From Nitrospira sp. MA-1 (lineage in GTDB: Bacteria; Nitrospirota; Nitrospiria; Nitrospirales; UBA8639): a stretch of DNA of 64,000 bases. Where the stretch lies: contig JAQJDB010000006.1 of assembly GCA_032139905.1 (NCBI GenBank), forward strand, positions 434,001 through 498,000, given 5' to 3'. This document shows, in pieces, positions 46,838 to 54,395 of this stretch (position 1 is its first letter; each line of letters opens with the position of its first letter). The notes beneath the pieces are model-generated. The model ran no database searches. It was not told the origin of the DNA and saw nothing but the letters and a program-made list of their open reading frames with translations. A program made the position numbers and the translations under genes.

Positions 46838-48238
46838 TTAGGGAATCGCTCGGATTTGAATCCCATCGACCCGCTCTTGAGCCAACACGTCTGAGATAAT
46901 CACGACCTTATCTCCCGCTTGGAAATGTTCCCGGGCTTTTAAAATTCGAAATGCGGTTTGGAGTGTTTTCTCCGGGTCTGAACTAAAGTCGATCCGAAAG
47001 GGATAGACGCCTCGATTCAGCGTCATCGTTCGACGGGATTGACTCCCGTTCGTGAAAGCATAAATGTTCGTGGAAAATGGACGACAATTCGAGACCAAAT
47101 CCGCCATGATGCCTCGACGGGTGATCACGACAATTCCTTTGGCGTGTAATCCTTCCGCGAGCTGGACGGCGGCGGTGGCCAATTGCTGTTTGTCTGTCGT
47201 CAGCTTTAACTGTTTCGCAAACTGCAATCCTGGAATGGCTTCGGTTTTGATGGAGATTTTTCTCAGATACTCGATACATTTCAGCGGATATTTTCCGACC
47301 GTGGTTTCCCCGGATAACATTACCCCATCGACTTCCTCATAGATGGCATTGGCCACGTCAGTGACTTCGGCGCGCGTGGGGATGGGATTATGGATCATTG
47401 ATTCCAGGAGATGGGTGGCCACGATCACGCGTTTGCCGGATTCCGCACAGAGCCGCACGATTCTCCGTTGCACATTCGGCAAATCCTCCAGGTTGATTTC
47501 TGCTCCCAAATCTCCGCGAGCCACCATAATGCCATCCGATTCCTGAATAATTTCTTCCAGATTACGGACCCCTTCCTGATCTTCAATCTTGGCAATAATT
47601 TTCACTCTCCCCACTTTGTGGCCCATAAGCTGTCGTAATTGTCGGATATCTTTCGCTTCTCGAACAAAGGAAAGAGCAATGAAATCCACATCGGCGGCTA
47701 AACCAAAGGCAATGTCTTTTTCGTCCTTTTGGGTAATGGCAGGGAGATTGACGCGGATTCCAGGTAAATTGACATGGCGTTTACTTTTCAATACCCCCCC
47801 ATCAAGGACCCGGCACTGCATGAGACGATCCTGTTTTTCAAGGACCTCAAAATTAATCAACCCGTTATCCACGGTAATCTTATCTCCGACATTCACAGAT
47901 TCCATTAAATCGGCGTAGTTGATGTGAATAGAGCTTTCTTCCACATCCATCGGACCACGCGCAGAAATAGAAACGATCGTGCCTTCCTGGAGATTGAGGT
48001 CAATCGATAAATCTCCTGTCCGGATTTCAGGGCCTTGGGTATCTAGAAGAATCGGAATAGGAAATGGGACCTTGGTATTGAGCGTCTTAATATGTTTGAT
48101 CACTTTGGCATGGGATTCGTGGGTTCCATGGGACATGTTCAACCGCACGATGTTCATGCCGGCATCATACATTTTGCGCAACATTTCATAAGATTCGGTT
48201 ACCGGTCCGATCGTGCAGATGATTTTTGTCTTTTGCAT
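46838..48238 (-). CDS. pyk: Pyruvate kinase
   Basis: Converts phosphoenolpyruvate and ADP to pyruvate and ATP. The 466-residue protein begins TKIICTIGPVTESYEMLRK and has NIVRLNMSHG, the metal and phosphate site FIALSFVREAKD, the catalytic KIIAKIEDQEGVRN, MVARGDLGAEI, and MLSGETTVGKYP. The C-terminal allosteric domain is present. It is divergent from the phosphofructokinase fusion, so the two irreversible glycolytic steps flank one intergenic region. Confidence 0.95.
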   Translation of the reverse strand: MQKTKIICTIGPVTESYEMLRKMYDAGMNIVRLNMSHGTHESHAKVIKHIKTLNTKVPFPIPILLDTQGPEIRTGDLSIDLNLQEGTIVSISARGPMDVEESSIHINYADLMESVNVGDKITVDNGLINFEVLEKQDRLMQCRVLDGGVLKSKRHVNLPGIRVNLPAITQKDEKDIAFGLAADVDFIALSFVREAKDIRQLRQLMGHKVGRVKIIAKIEDQEGVRNLEEIIQESDGIMVARGDLGAEINLEDLPNVQRRIVRLCAESGKRVIVATHLLESMIHNPIPTRAEVTDVANAIYEEVDGVMLSGETTVGKYPLKCIEYLRKISIKTEAIPGLQFAKQLKLTTDKQQLATAAVQLAEGLHAKGIVVITRRGIMADLVSNCRPFSTNIYAFTNGSQSRRTMTLNRGVYPFRIDFSSDPEKTLQTAFRILKAREHFQAGDKVVIISDVLAQERVDGIQIRAIP

Positions 48239-48698: not shown

Positions 48699-51014
48699 AT
48701 GAAAGCAGAAGCAGAAAATCTGGAATTTGTCACGATTAACGGATTGTTATCCTATGGGGAGGCCATTGCCAGGCGTCCGCCGGTAGAGGGTGCGGAGCCT
48801 CATCCCCCTTTAACTACATTGGAAGATCGTCCGCAACGGACATTGGAGGTCATGGCCGCCATACGACTGTTTGTTCAGGAGGCTCAAAAAGGGTTTGCCA
48901 ATGCCGCAGCTTACAGAGAGGCAAGGCAGGCGTTGATCCGGCAAGCCTGCGGAGGAGATGAGTTGGTGTTTTTCGCTGCCTGGAATCAGCTTCTCGCTCA
49001 GAGCGAGCTTGCTCCCTTGTTTCGTGCCCCAATCGGGGCCACGAATAAACCTATACGTCGTCGACCCGTGGCGATCGTTCCGCGCGAGCATATGACGCCC
49101 AATCTGGCGGAAGGTCGAATCGTCCTGGATATTGGCGATGACCGCTTCTGGTTGATGCCAAGGGATTTAAGTGCCCGCACGCTGTTTTTCACCATGCGGC
49201 ACGGTGTCTCCCGGATGGATAGTAAGAAGTTTCGGGTGGGGCGCCGGTTGAGAAACGTTCTGGATGTCGAGCGGGGAATTCCAAAGGCCGATGCCATCGG
49301 AACCGCCCTTGTCCGGACCTTAGGCTTGGTGGGAAAACAACTGGACTTCCTTCAGTTGGATAACTACCTGGATTCGAAATCCTTTGTGCATATGGTGAGT
49401 CAGAGTCCCAATACCCGGCAGCTTTTTGAACGGGTCATCTCTATCCTGTCTCCCGAGACAGCCAAGGCCACTCAGCCCATCACGGAATGGGCCTTAGAAT
49501 CGCAAGACTTCGGATGGGCCACCGGTATTGAGAAAACAATTGAAATCGAAGAAGCCGCCAGGGCCTTTGGGGTCGATACGAAGACGGCGCAACGTCTGAT
49601 TAAACACCCGCTGTACAGTTATCCCGGAGGTCACTCTTTCTTTGAACTCTATGTAGAATTGGTTGACGGGTTCCATCAGTTGGGCCAAACTCACCAGGGA
49701 AAAGTGTTGTGTTTATATACGCACAGCTCAACCTTGCGTGCACTCTTAATTTTTCTGGATCCTCGTCCATTCAGTGAAGCCTTCTCAGAATTTGGCGCCT
49801 ATAAGGAAGGACAGGACAACGTCGTCCTTCTCACCTATGAACATGGGCAATTGTCAGGCTATTCCACCGCCGTGGGCCTTTCAGAGCGGGAACGTGCCGT
49901 CCGCGAGGCCTTGAAGACTGCGGAGCAAGGCCGTCGGGAAAAGGTCATCCTGAAACCCCGCCAGATTCGGCGGATCGTTGCCCTGGTCTCCGGTGGGGAT
50001 TTTGCGGGAGCCGGAGCGGCATTGAAGGAGCTCCGCGTGACGGGGAACCGGTTAGGCCTCGAAGTCTATTTCGTGCAACACGGATTTCTGGGGTTGGCCA
50101 ATAATTGGATTGAGTTGGTGACGGAACAGGACACACGTGGCATGAGCAATCATGCCAGCAGCCCGATTGGCAGCAGCCGGTTTGAAGATTTCAAGGATGA
50201 GGCGGCTCAACTGGCCGCCATTCAGCATCTCAAACCGTACCTGGAGGATGGGGCGCTCATTGTGATGGGCGGTGACGGCAGTATGCGTGGGGCCCGTGCC
50301 ATTTATGAACGGTTCGGCATTCAGGTTGTGGGGATACCCGGTTCGATCGACGATAATATCGCCGGAACCACCTCACTCGGGCTCCAATCGGCGGTCGCCC
50401 TGGCTAATCAATCCATCGAGTCGCTGAAGGCAACCAGTGCCGCCATGGGCAGTGTGTTTTTTGTGGAGGTCATGGGGGCAGGATCCGGGCACCTGGCGCT
50501 TATGTGTGCCTACCAGGCACGAGCGGAGGGACTGTTGGTCAATGAACATCCTGATCCGGATGCCTACATCGAGGAAGTCATTCTGGGAACATTGAAACAA
50601 ACGTTGGGGGTCCGGAATAAAAGCCATATTATAATAGTGGCCGAACGCACGCCTCACCAACATCATCCGGAGGGCGGGGTCCATGGCTTGGTGGATTATG
50701 TCGGCAGTCGGATTTCCCAGTGGACCCACCTGCAACCGCGATCCGGACATTACCCTCTTTCTGTGGCAACCAAGGCCACCATTCTTGGCCATACCCTACG
50801 AGGCGCCTTCCCGACCCCGGTGGACAAAACCATGGCGCAACTCTTTGCCTACGAAGCCATCCGGCGGTTGATCGAACAACCGGAACAGGTCATCGGCTGC
50901 ATGTTAGCCTACCGGGACCCCGGAACCATACAGCCGATTCCCTTGCATGCCGTGGCACCAAAACCCTTTGATTGGGAACTCTTCGCGCGCATGCACGGAA
51001 CCGAGTTGGTTTAG
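48699..51014 (+). CDS. Histidine-phosphatase-like domain fused to a phosphofructokinase domain
   Basis: One 771-codon frame. Residues 1 to about 160 are helical and unassigned. About 161-395 resemble a histidine phosphatase: Arg167-His168-Gly169 (FFTMRHGVSR), YPGGHSFFELY (residues 308-318, with His where the family has Glu) and the second histidine His342 (LYTHSSTLRAL). From about 424 a PfkA-type domain follows: IVALVSGGDFAGAG, GGDG at 524-527, GIPGSIDDN with Asp551 as the likely base, VMGAGSGHLAL and Glu649 (VAER). The usual Thr-Ile-Asp-Asn-Asp reads Ser-Ile-Asp-Asp-Asn, and several substrate residues differ. It probably phosphorylates fructose-6-phosphate or a related sugar phosphate, with ATP or diphosphate. 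The phosphatase-like half may oppose or sense that reaction. Confidence 0.82.
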   Translation: MKAEAENLEFVTINGLLSYGEAIARRPPVEGAEPHPPLTTLEDRPQRTLEVMAAIRLFVQEAQKGFANAAAYREARQALIRQACGGDELVFFAAWNQLLAQSELAPLFRAPIGATNKPIRRRPVAIVPREHMTPNLAEGRIVLDIGDDRFWLMPRDLSARTLFFTMRHGVSRMDSKKFRVGRRLRNVLDVERGIPKADAIGTALVRTLGLVGKQLDFLQLDNYLDSKSFVHMVSQSPNTRQLFERVISILSPETAKATQPITEWALESQDFGWATGIEKTIEIEEAARAFGVDTKTAQRLIKHPLYSYPGGHSFFELYVELVDGFHQLGQTHQGKVLCLYTHSSTLRALLIFLDPRPFSEAFSEFGAYKEGQDNVVLLTYEHGQLSGYSTAVGLSERERAVREALKTAEQGRREKVILKPRQIRRIVALVSGGDFAGAGAALKELRVTGNRLGLEVYFVQHGFLGLANNWIELVTEQDTRGMSNHASSPIGSSRFEDFKDEAAQLAAIQHLKPYLEDGALIVMGGDGSMRGARAIYERFGIQVVGIPGSIDDNIAGTTSLGLQSAVALANQSIESLKATSAAMGSVFFVEVMGAGSGHLALMCAYQARAEGLLVNEHPDPDAYIEEVILGTLKQTLGVRNKSHIIIVAERTPHQHHPEGGVHGLVDYVGSRISQWTHLQPRSGHYPLSVATKATILGHTLRGAFPTPVDKTMAQLFAYEAIRRLIEQPEQVIGCMLAYRDPGTIQPIPLHAVAPKPFDWELFARMHGTELV

Positions 51015-51276: not shown

Positions 51277-52356
51277 ATGGCGAGTACGACCGGTATGAGA
51301 GGGGGAGGCTTCTACGATGCGCACTCCTCCGGGCAGCGCGCGGCGATGGACGAGTTTCTTCCCTGGATGGTAGAGGCCATGGCCGACTTGCCCTTGCCGG
51401 CGCGCGGCTCGCCGATCGCGTTGCTCGACCTCGGTTCGTCAGAAGGCGCTAACGCGATTCATGCCGTGGGCGCGATCATCAAGGCATTGCGCGAACGCAC
51501 ATCGGCCGACATCTGGACCTTCTTCGATGATCTGCCCACGAACGACTTCAATCAACTCTTCGCCAACCTCTTTCCCGACCAGACCCCCTCAAGTCGCACA
51601 GCCGGTATCTATACCGCTGCCGTCGGCGGGTCGCTCTTCGAGCGTGTTGCCCCAGCCTCGAGCCTTGACATCGCGACGACATTCAATGCGGTGGGCTGGA
51701 TGTCCGCGTTGCCCACGACGCCCCTTCGGCAGTTCATCTCACCCTCGCCACCGGCGCAGCGGGCCTTTCGTGAGGGCGTCTCAGTGACCACGGAAGAAAG
51801 AGCGGCCTTCACTCAGCACGCCCGTGAAGACATCCTGAGTTTCTACCGGTCCCGTGCCGCCGAGCTGAAGCCCGGCGGGAAACTGCTCGTACAGGTCTTC
51901 GGACGCAACGACGAGCACAACACCGCAAATGGCATCATCGACGGGCTGAGCGACGCGATGCTGGACATGGTGGAGGACGGCCGCCTGACGCGCGACGTCT
52001 ACGAGAACTTCGTCTTCCCCGTTTTCTATCGTTCCCTTCCGGAGTTGTTGCCCCCGGCCGGAGAGAGCGGGGAGCCTCCGGCGTTCCGCGTCGACAAAGC
52101 GGAGGCCCGCGAATGCCGGGTTCCGTTTAACGAGGAGTTCGCCCGAAGTGGGGACTCGCGTGTCTGGGCCGGGAGCTACGCCGGATTCATCCGCGCATTC
52201 TCAGAACCTGTCTTCACGTCCGGCCTGCCGAACACCCCCGATCGGCCACAGCTGATCGACGAGCTGTATGCCCGGATGGCGAATCGATTCGAGGCCGATC
52301 CCGCCCGCTACGAGTTTCATTTCATTTCGCTGGGCGCATTGCTGACGCGGGTGTGA
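51277..52356 (+). CDS. SABATH-type SAM-dependent carboxyl methyltransferase
   Basis: A 359-residue protein matching the Methyltransf_7 (SABATH) family, known mainly from plants, where it methylates carboxyl or ring-nitrogen groups of small acids such as salicylate. Family features in order are: GGGFYDAHSSGQRAA near the N-terminus, the SAM loop LLDLGSSEGANA (49-60), FDDLPTNDFNQLF (83-95), and GGSLFERVAPASSLD followed by a WMS motif like the family's HWLS. GGAG eight bases before the ATG supports the start. The gene is clearly more GC-rich than the conserved genes to its left, suggesting transfer. The substrate is unknown. Confidence 0.85.
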   Translation: MASTTGMRGGGFYDAHSSGQRAAMDEFLPWMVEAMADLPLPARGSPIALLDLGSSEGANAIHAVGAIIKALRERTSADIWTFFDDLPTNDFNQLFANLFPDQTPSSRTAGIYTAAVGGSLFERVAPASSLDIATTFNAVGWMSALPTTPLRQFISPSPPAQRAFREGVSVTTEERAAFTQHAREDILSFYRSRAAELKPGGKLLVQVFGRNDEHNTANGIIDGLSDAMLDMVEDGRLTRDVYENFVFPVFYRSLPELLPPAGESGEPPAFRVDKAEARECRVPFNEEFARSGDSRVWAGSYAGFIRAFSEPVFTSGLPNTPDRPQLIDELYARMANRFEADPARYEFHFISLGALLTRV

Positions 52357-52546
52357 ATGGGGTTGCCTGCCAACCTGTGCCCAATGCGGTTTCATCGAGT
52401 CCGTATCGTCACACAACTCATCCAGCCTCTCGGTCATTCCCTGAAAAGTCCCATTCGTTTTTTGATGGAAGTCGTGGGTAGAGAATACAGGTTTTAGTCA
52501 CGTGAAATAACATAGACACGGCCATCGCGTTATGAAAGGGTGCAAT

Positions 52547-53452
52547 ATGAAGGTTGATAGTTGGTCTGGAACCATCATTTCCATTCCTTTCCAAAATCAC
52601 CAAATTGATGGGTTGTTTTATCATCTTGTCACAGACGATGAGCATGTCCGGAACAAGCCTGTCATATTGAGGCTCCATGGACTCCTAGGGAATCTCCTGG
52701 ATGAAACCGAGCATGATCTTCCTTACATTCTGGCGAAGCATGGGTATTCTTCCATGACCATCAATACGATCATGGCCAATCTGGGCTTATTTTTTGGATT
52801 TGGTATTTTCGACGAGGCGATGCCTCAAATCCATGCGGCTTGTTCTTATCTTCGACAGATGGGCTTTCAGAAAATTATTCTTGCAGGACATGGATTGGGA
52901 GGAGCCATGGCGATTCGCTATGGCGCGTTGCAACAGCAACAATTCCCATCTCCTGACATTCAAGGAATTATTGCCATTGCCACAGCATATTCTTTGCCCG
53001 ACACGATCCGGAAACGATGGACACGATTTGGCAGTCAACCTTCCTACCAGGAAGTCTATGAAAAGGCCAAAACACTGTATCATTCAAAGCCCGGGCACGA
53101 TCTGCCGGATGATGAAACCCTTGTCGTCAAACGGGCGCATGGTCCAACCGTCCGACCAGAGCATTCAGAAATCTATACGTTGAAAACCTGGTGGACCTTA
53201 GCAGGACCTGAAGCAGATGGTCCCAAAGCCTACCAACATATAGGGGGCATCAAGGTGCCGGTCCTGTTAGTTCACGGAAAATATGATGAGATGATCGACC
53301 CACAGGAGTGTGGCGCACTGGGAGATGTGGCCAAAACAGCAGGCAATCCGGATGTGACCATGCTCCACCTAGAAGCCGGGCACGATCTTTCTGGAAAGCA
53401 CGAGGAACTCGGACAGGAGGTGGTGAAATGGATTCAGGAGCGATTTGAATAA
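52547..53452 (+). CDS. Alpha/beta hydrolase-fold protein lacking the nucleophile serine
   Basis: A 301-residue alpha/beta-hydrolase. The oxyanion motif HGLLGN is at residues 44-49. The nucleophile elbow reads GHGLGG (from residue 114): the serine expected at position 116 is glycine (codon GGA, 52892-52894). The acid (HGKYDEMID) and histidine (EAGHDLSGK) positions are kept. AAGGG six bases before ATG 52547 supports this start over ATG 52532. It is followed at once by a paralogue with an intact serine, so it may be a binding or regulatory partner rather than an enzyme. Confidence 0.8.
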   Translation: MKVDSWSGTIISIPFQNHQIDGLFYHLVTDDEHVRNKPVILRLHGLLGNLLDETEHDLPYILAKHGYSSMTINTIMANLGLFFGFGIFDEAMPQIHAACSYLRQMGFQKIILAGHGLGGAMAIRYGALQQQQFPSPDIQGIIAIATAYSLPDTIRKRWTRFGSQPSYQEVYEKAKTLYHSKPGHDLPDDETLVVKRAHGPTVRPEHSEIYTLKTWWTLAGPEADGPKAYQHIGGIKVPVLLVHGKYDEMIDPQECGALGDVAKTAGNPDVTMLHLEAGHDLSGKHEELGQEVVKWIQERFE

Positions 53453-53501
53453 TGATGGTCTTTTACGGGTCTGTCCAAAAATCCAGCCACCAAAGATTCC
53501 G

Positions 53502-54395
53502 ATGATCCACCCCCACCAACAATTGTTCCGGCTTCGAACACGCGATGGGTTGATGATGAGTGGGCATCTGATCATCAAAGAAAATGATCTTGATACGAAC
53601 ATCCTCAAAACACCAATTGTCATTGAAGTGCATGGTCTGTTAGGGAACTTCTTGGCACGAGGGACTCCTCGCCTTCTTTCTCAGGCTCTCCGGGAGTGGG
53701 ATATTTCGTCGTTTTCCATTAACACCAGACTGGCATTCGCCGGGCAAATAAACGGAAGAGGAATTTTCGATGAGACGATCCATGATATAGACGCGGCCGT
53801 GCACTTTCTGGCTCAAGAAGGATTTTCTAATATTTTCATCTTAGGCTATAGCCTCGGTGCCAGTATGGTCTTGCACTGGGCAGGGCATCGCCACGTTCCC
53901 AATGTCAAAGGCCTCATTCTTGAAGGGACGCACTATGCCATCCCCGATACACAGAGAAAGCGATTGGCCAAATGGGAAAGTACTCCGAGCTATGAGGAAT
54001 TATATGCCCAGGCCAAGTCTATTCTAGGCGAGAATCCCTCTCAGAGTGATCATGATGAAATGGTGGTGATCTACCAAGCCCGAGGACCAAGCCGGAGCCC
54101 ATTGCATGATGAAATTTTTACCTATAAAACATGGTGGCACATGATGGGACCGGAGGCGTATTCTGCCATGGCCTACAAACAGATAAGCCGTGTCACATTG
54201 CCCATGCTGCTGATGCGGGGGGAAAACGATCCGCTCATCGAGGCGTGGGAAGCCGAAGCCTTACAACGCATTGCACAAGAGGCAGGGAATACCTTCGTGT
54301 CTATCAAGGACATTCCTCGCGCGGGTCATGATTGCATGGACAACCCGGAGGCGATGCTCCAAGAAATCCTTACCCTACTCAGACCCTCCCCTTGA
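53502..54395 (+). CDS. Alpha/beta hydrolase, intact catalytic triad
   Basis: A 297-residue paralogue of the preceding gene. HGLLGN again falls at residue 44 when the ATG at 53502 is used, which supports that start over a TTG at 53445 inside the previous gene. The nucleophile elbow is GYSLGAS with Ser117; the acid lies in RGENDPLIE and the histidine in PRAGHDCMD. Both paralogues share an IFDE motif and an (I)YT/FTYKTWW segment. Substrate unknown; esterase or lipase-like activity is expected from the fold. Confidence 0.82.
   Translation: MIHPHQQLFRLRTRDGLMMSGHLIIKENDLDTNILKTPIVIEVHGLLGNFLARGTPRLLSQALREWDISSFSINTRLAFAGQINGRGIFDETIHDIDAAVHFLAQEGFSNIFILGYSLGASMVLHWAGHRHVPNVKGLILEGTHYAIPDTQRKRLAKWESTPSYEELYAQAKSILGENPSQSDHDEMVVIYQARGPSRSPLHDEIFTYKTWWHMMGPEAYSAMAYKQISRVTLPMLLMRGENDPLIEAWEAEALQRIAQEAGNTFVSIKDIPRAGHDCMDNPEAMLQEILTLLRPSP

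Follow-up and report, generated by a model that had tools for sequence, protein, structure and literature searches.

Architecture of the fusion gene

The analysed window, 64,000 nt of DNA from Nitrospira sp. MA-1, contains a gene that joins a phosphatase-like half to a phosphofructokinase (PFK) half and that lies next to a pyruvate kinase gene, pyk (Table 1). The initial annotation had described one uninterrupted frame over both halves, a divergent pyk and a set of diagnostic residues. The frame is indeed open from its ATG to its stop, pyk lies on the opposite strand, and the quoted residues (R167-H168-G169, P309-G-G-H312-S, H342, G524-G-D526-G527, D551 and E649) all occupy the places given for them.

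Table 1. Coordinates of the fusion gene, its parts and the neighbouring pyk gene within the window.
Feature	Coordinates	Strand	Remarks
Complete fusion gene	48699..51014	+	771 aa (771 codons); full-length relatives in about 100 genomes
Residues 1-~159, helical/beta N-terminal module	48699..49175	+	No family match; present only within the fusion
Residues ~160-395, histidine-phosphatase-fold domain	49176..49883	+	RHG 167-169, SPNTR 236-240, LESQDFG 266-272, PGGHS 309-313, H342
Residues 396-424, helical linker	49884..49970	+	From the model
Residues 425-771, PFK-A domain	49971..51011	+	Donor glycines G527/G531 of ATP type, base D551, E649
Pyruvate kinase (pyk), divergent neighbour of the fusion	46838..48238	-	Pfam PK E 3e-116; adjacency kept across Nitrospirales

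The kinase half is a member of the PFK-A superfamily, with residues 425-722 matching Pfam PF00365 at an E-value of 1.1e-57 (196 bits against a cut-off of 30.9). For the phosphatase half, the window protein alone matches PF00300 (His_Phos_1) below its cut-off (E 0.046); the same family matches 21 out of 21 scanned relatives at E ≤ 1, with a best value of 4e-6. Moreover, an AlphaFold2 model of residues 1-421, built from 21 relatives, has a mean pLDDT of 83, and VIA-align comparisons of its residues 139-393 return T. vaginalis phosphoglycerate mutase (Z = 17.0 over 206 residues, rmsd 2.9), B. stearothermophilus PhoE/YhfR (Z = 16.7) and E. coli dPGM (Z = 16.2). According to the model, residues ~139-393 have the histidine-phosphatase superfamily fold, with the RHG motif and the second histidine present. 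A Foldseek search with the full model, whose PFK half is of low confidence, puts bacterial PFKs at the top (S. aureus 5xoe, E 3e-17). Taken together, the Pfam matches, the PF00300 traces in relatives, the structural alignments and the Foldseek ranking support both halves as they were initially named. The N-terminal ~159 residues have no match in Pfam.

Two findings had been named in advance as fatal to this architecture: a phosphatase half without the histidine-phosphatase fold, and a sequencing error joining two genes. The fold match rules out the former. As for the latter, the same full-length frame recurs in about 100 genomes that are independent of one another, complete chromosomes among them; an assembly or sequencing artefact, for which no supporting point was found, is thereby refuted and its probability is negligible.

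Directly downstream of the fusion, positions 51277-52356 encode a SAM-dependent carboxyl methyltransferase (PF03492, E 8e-39), a member of a family best known from plants, which is not adjacent to the fusion in most relatives. Positions 52532-54395 hold two alpha/beta hydrolase genes in tandem, alike in length and sequence pattern and overlapping by 8 bases, which are possibly a local duplication; both are also present in L003 and L058.

Residue patterns in the two halves

Members of the histidine phosphatase superfamily need two arginines, two histidines and usually an acid for full activity. Across 62 distinct sequences of the fusion, R167, H168, G169, S171, D270, G272, W273, G310, G311, S313, H342 and R347 never vary, and two histidines and one arginine of the superfamily's catalytic set remain; by alignment, the second arginine and the acid are missing. 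In particular, position 240 is paired with the arginine of the SxLxR motif if the serines are aligned without gaps, and it is Arg in 32 of the sequences and Glu in 21, with nearly all of the remainder being His, Ser, Thr, Lys, Ala or Gln; the profile alignment offers N238 as an alternative partner. Because position 240 is variable and the alternative is an asparagine, there is no invariant arginine at the place of the second catalytic Arg. In the profile alignment, S268, a serine in 61 of 62 sequences, stands where the LxExx(F/Y)G motif has its catalytic acid; as with R240, this placement comes from a sequence alignment (hhalign E 0.007, probability only 5%) and not from coordinates. Judged from these residues, phosphate binding by the domain is plausible, efficient catalysis is doubtful, and catalytic power has probably been lost, but the invariant nucleophile His168 could equally be compatible with retained catalysis.

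The initial annotation had also drawn attention to odd residues in both halves as hints of altered specificity or a sensing role. The histidine of PGGHS, where the usual PGGES motif has Glu, is at its place, but 6 of the 62 sequences have Asn there and the other 56 His. The SIDDN sequence of the kinase half is a lineage variant; family-wide, the Thr-Ile-Asp-Asn-Asp motif reads T/S-I-D-N/D-N, and only the change of the last Asp to Asn is invariant. Neither residue is decisive. Of the annotation's suggestions, the secondary one, a sensing role, fits best.

The kinase half shares with bacterial ATP-dependent PfkA (TIGR02482, NF002872) its fold, the ATP-type donor glycines G104 and G108 and, in E. 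coli numbering, D103, R72, the base D127, E222, H249 and R252; M169 is kept as well. Among 32 sequences, D127, D103, R72, E222, R252 and the donor glycines are invariant, with G527 and G531 present in 32/32. Glycine at both 104 and 108 is the ATP-type donor pattern (PMC11609450). The Asp104 and Lys124 of PPi-dependent enzymes are both replaced by Gly, and PPi-dependence of the fusion is ruled out by Gly104/Gly124.

In contrast to PfkA, the fusion lacks R162, R171, R243, D129 and most effector-site residues, and it carries a 420-residue N-terminal addition. Arg162 is one of four residues that bind the phosphate of fructose 6-phosphate, and it is this residue that swings away when the enzyme is in its inactive T state (PMC12203962). 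It is replaced by Ser in 31 of 32 sequences (and by Thr in one), while R171 to A, R243 to K and D129 to N are found in 32/32; in the window protein these four positions are S585, A594, K692 and N553. At the effector site, R21 is replaced by K, R25 mostly by V, R54 by E, R154 by K and K213 by N, leaving neither the Arg162 switch nor the effector-site Arg/Lys set of a classical allosteric PFK. None of twelve free-standing PFKs of the same phylum, nor E. coli PfkA, has this combination, and all of them retain R162, R243 and D129. Further, the stem of the fusion clade has accumulated ~4 changes per column; after it, constraint is strong. The fusion reaches no NCBIfam cut-off and falls far short of the curated PfkA models, scoring 177.5 bits on TIGR02482 (PFKA_ATP; cut-off of 371.35) and 184.4 bits on NF002872 (ATP-PFK subfamily; cut-off of 253), while these models accept a related genome's canonical PFK at 384.5 and 404 bits. 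The loss of Arg162, Arg171 and Asp129 could indicate that the kinase acts on another substrate or is dead.

Distribution, selection and genomic context

A profile covering residues 1-421 matches in 117 of 186 Nitrospiria genomes (110 of 177 if only high-quality genomes are counted). Except at contig ends and in decayed copies, the matches always lie within a frame of at least about 765 residues that runs into PFK; with this profile, the N-terminal module was not found standing alone in the 186 genomes. Among 396 sampled genomes of the phylum, every full-length match listed belongs to Nitrospiria, the window's class, and in the other classes the PFK half alone matches, at about 35% identity or less. 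An all-species scan adds relatives named almost exclusively Nitrospira, Nitrospirales or Candidatus Manganitrophus, using exact peptide patterns that distant fusions in other phyla could escape. No fusion was found on plasmids, where the matches are PFK halves only.

All three parts are under purifying selection, with dN/dS ratios, for comparisons where dS was estimable, of 0.10-0.15 in residues 1-160, 0.04-0.09 in residues 161-395 and 0.02-0.06 in residues 425-771. Several lineages are without the fusion, and in one genome the copy has decayed and holds five stops (L074, L020); that genome (L074; G301) is also without a glycogen-phosphorylase-family match. A reduced-genome genus of the same family (g2 of f1), together with several others, has no PFK match at all. 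The listed genomes of this genus (G065, G081, G173 and others) have no fusion, PFK or glycogen-phosphorylase-family match, absences consistent with a loss of glycogen burning. Across the class, co-occurrence of glycogen phosphorylase with the fusion is widespread and gives no clean contrast.

The pyk gene is located within 4 kb of the fusion in 77 of 99 loci, a count in which some species appear twice. Loci with both flanks and no pyk are all outside Nitrospirales, including a Manganitrophus record (L050) placed there by name. Two pyk lineages, 35-43% identical, pair with the fusion, mostly upstream and divergent and in other cases downstream, which implies that the pairing outlived rearrangement.

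The non-Nitrospirales genomes examined have a separate PFK of ~290-385 residues besides the fusion; among the lineages examined, these were the only ones in which a canonical ATP-type PFK standing separate from the fusion was seen. In Nitrospirales the fusion is mostly present, accompanied in many genomes by a PFK of ~420-470 residues, which in the window's genome is of PPi type. This PPi-type PFK (L002:862-2208) has the motifs GGDDT and PKTIDND, with D and K at 104/124, and passes NF041103 with 634.7 bits (cut-off of 550). In the Nitrospirales examined, the divergent fusion, a protein that passes no curated PFK model, is the sole ATP-type PFK; this suggests that it took over the ATP-dependent PFK duty in this order. 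Its original role need not be glycolytic, since outside Nitrospirales a canonical PFK coexists and pyk is not near.

The window's genome has a class I fructose-1,6-bisphosphatase (FBPase) with the motif DPLDGSSNID; GlpX and archaeal-type FBPases were not found in it. With the class I enzyme present, the histidine-phosphatase domain is not a necessity as the cell's missing fructose-1,6-bisphosphatase. Besides the fusion, the same genome encodes at least two proteins resembling dPGM, as well as another histidine-phosphatase protein (L088:1492-2097, L089:1123-1866 and L087:1402-2070).

Proposed control of the kinase and its possible meaning

We propose that the fusion is an ATP-dependent PFK in which a phosphatase-fold domain, degenerate in catalysis but able to bind a ligand, has taken the place of classical allostery; to this reading we assign an even chance. 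The C-terminal half would probably be the ATP-dependent 6-phosphofructokinase of glycolysis, paired with pyruvate kinase and serving glycogen breakdown in otherwise gluconeogenic autotrophs. With the Arg162 switch and the majority of the basic effector-site (PEP/ADP) residues gone, this half would no longer undergo a PEP/ADP-driven R/T switch, and control would instead come from the N-terminal phosphatase-fold domain. That domain, which keeps the RHG/second-His part of the phosphate pocket without the second arginine or the acid, may turn over poorly, bind a phosphorylated metabolite and thereby gate the kinase. Put more broadly, control of PFK by a histidine-phosphatase-fold domain, whether as a pseudo-phosphatase metabolite sensor, through switching by a phosphohistidine at H168 or as part of a truly bifunctional kinase/phosphatase, may have evolved in Nitrospiria with no counterpart found; we hold this general statement with slightly less than even confidence.

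If both halves were active, the phosphatase domain would dephosphorylate the sugar bisphosphate (fructose-1,6- or sedoheptulose-1,7-) made by the PFK domain, in a design analogous to PFKFB, the 6-phosphofructo-2-kinase/fructose-2,6-bisphosphatase. R167, H168 and H342 are invariant, the top PDB profile match is PFKFB2 (E 1.3, not significant), and an M. tuberculosis enzyme of the histidine-phosphatase family has fructose bisphosphatase activity (PMC4535450), which makes such a bifunctional enzyme chemically reasonable; it must still explain the lost arginine and acid. The active kinase/phosphatase switch raised by the initial annotation is weakened, because the second arginine is variable, the acid aligns with serine and the genome already has its class I FBPase, and we consider true bifunctionality distinctly unlikely. 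Alternatively, the PFK domain may have acquired a substrate other than fructose 6-phosphate, such as sedoheptulose 7-phosphate, with the phosphatase domain as a partner or scaffold. The nearly or fully fixed changes at three substrate-site arginines (S585, A594 and K692), the long stem followed by constraint and the coexisting canonical ATP-PFK outside Nitrospirales would all agree with a new substrate, and PMC7029132 indicates that PFKs can serve a sedoheptulose-bisphosphate route. However, the pairing with pyruvate kinase is constant in Nitrospirales, where no canonical ATP-type PFK was seen, and Lys at site 243 is also found in the PPi-PFK of the window's genome. We consider a change of substrate unlikely.

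Catalytic residues are changed in both halves, several lineages do without the fusion and one copy has five stops, observations that would also suit a metabolite-sensing pseudo-enzyme, dead in both halves, that regulates another protein such as pyruvate kinase. The invariance of D127, D103, R72, E222, R252 and the donor glycines in the PFK half argues against this proposal, and it is quite improbable.

Known systems share parts of this design. Branch 1 histidine phosphatases (phosphoglycerate mutases, PhoE, FBPase-2) have in common with the fusion the fold (Z 16-17), the RHG motif, the second histidine and the GG-S motif; the fusion differs in its unconserved second arginine, the serine at the acid, the GES Glu replaced by His or Asn, and the unassigned module of ~160 residues in front. 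PFKFB likewise joins a kinase to a histidine-phosphatase-fold domain in sugar-phosphate metabolism, but its kinase is of the P-loop type and N-terminal and its phosphatase is active, whereas the fusion has no P-loop 6-phosphofructo-2-kinase domain, its kinase half being PFK-A and C-terminal. Yeast PFK-1 is a PFK-A with an acquired N-terminal enzyme-fold domain, there glyoxalase-I-like, and differs in the added fold and in being a eukaryotic tandem-duplicated PFK (PMC12203962). This 2025 review of PFKs names the yeast glyoxalase-like domain as a domain fusion and makes no mention of histidine phosphatases, and no description of a fusion between a histidine phosphatase and PFK was found in the literature searched, a scope that left out most subscription papers. 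The folds are known; the combination and the residue pattern are new and, in these data, confined to one bacterial class.

The fusion is an independent example, beside PFKFB and yeast PFK, of a second enzyme fold attached to a phosphofructokinase, and it offers clear predictions that can be tested on one purified protein. Nitrospira genomes have been described as having complete glycolysis and gluconeogenesis (PMC8115632, PMC7078480). As no other ATP-type PFK was seen in the Nitrospirales examined, these globally important nitrifiers may depend on the fusion for changing between glycogen synthesis and glycogen breakdown. Overall, the fusion suggests a home-made on/off control of sugar breakdown in Nitrospira-type bacteria that is apparently undescribed.
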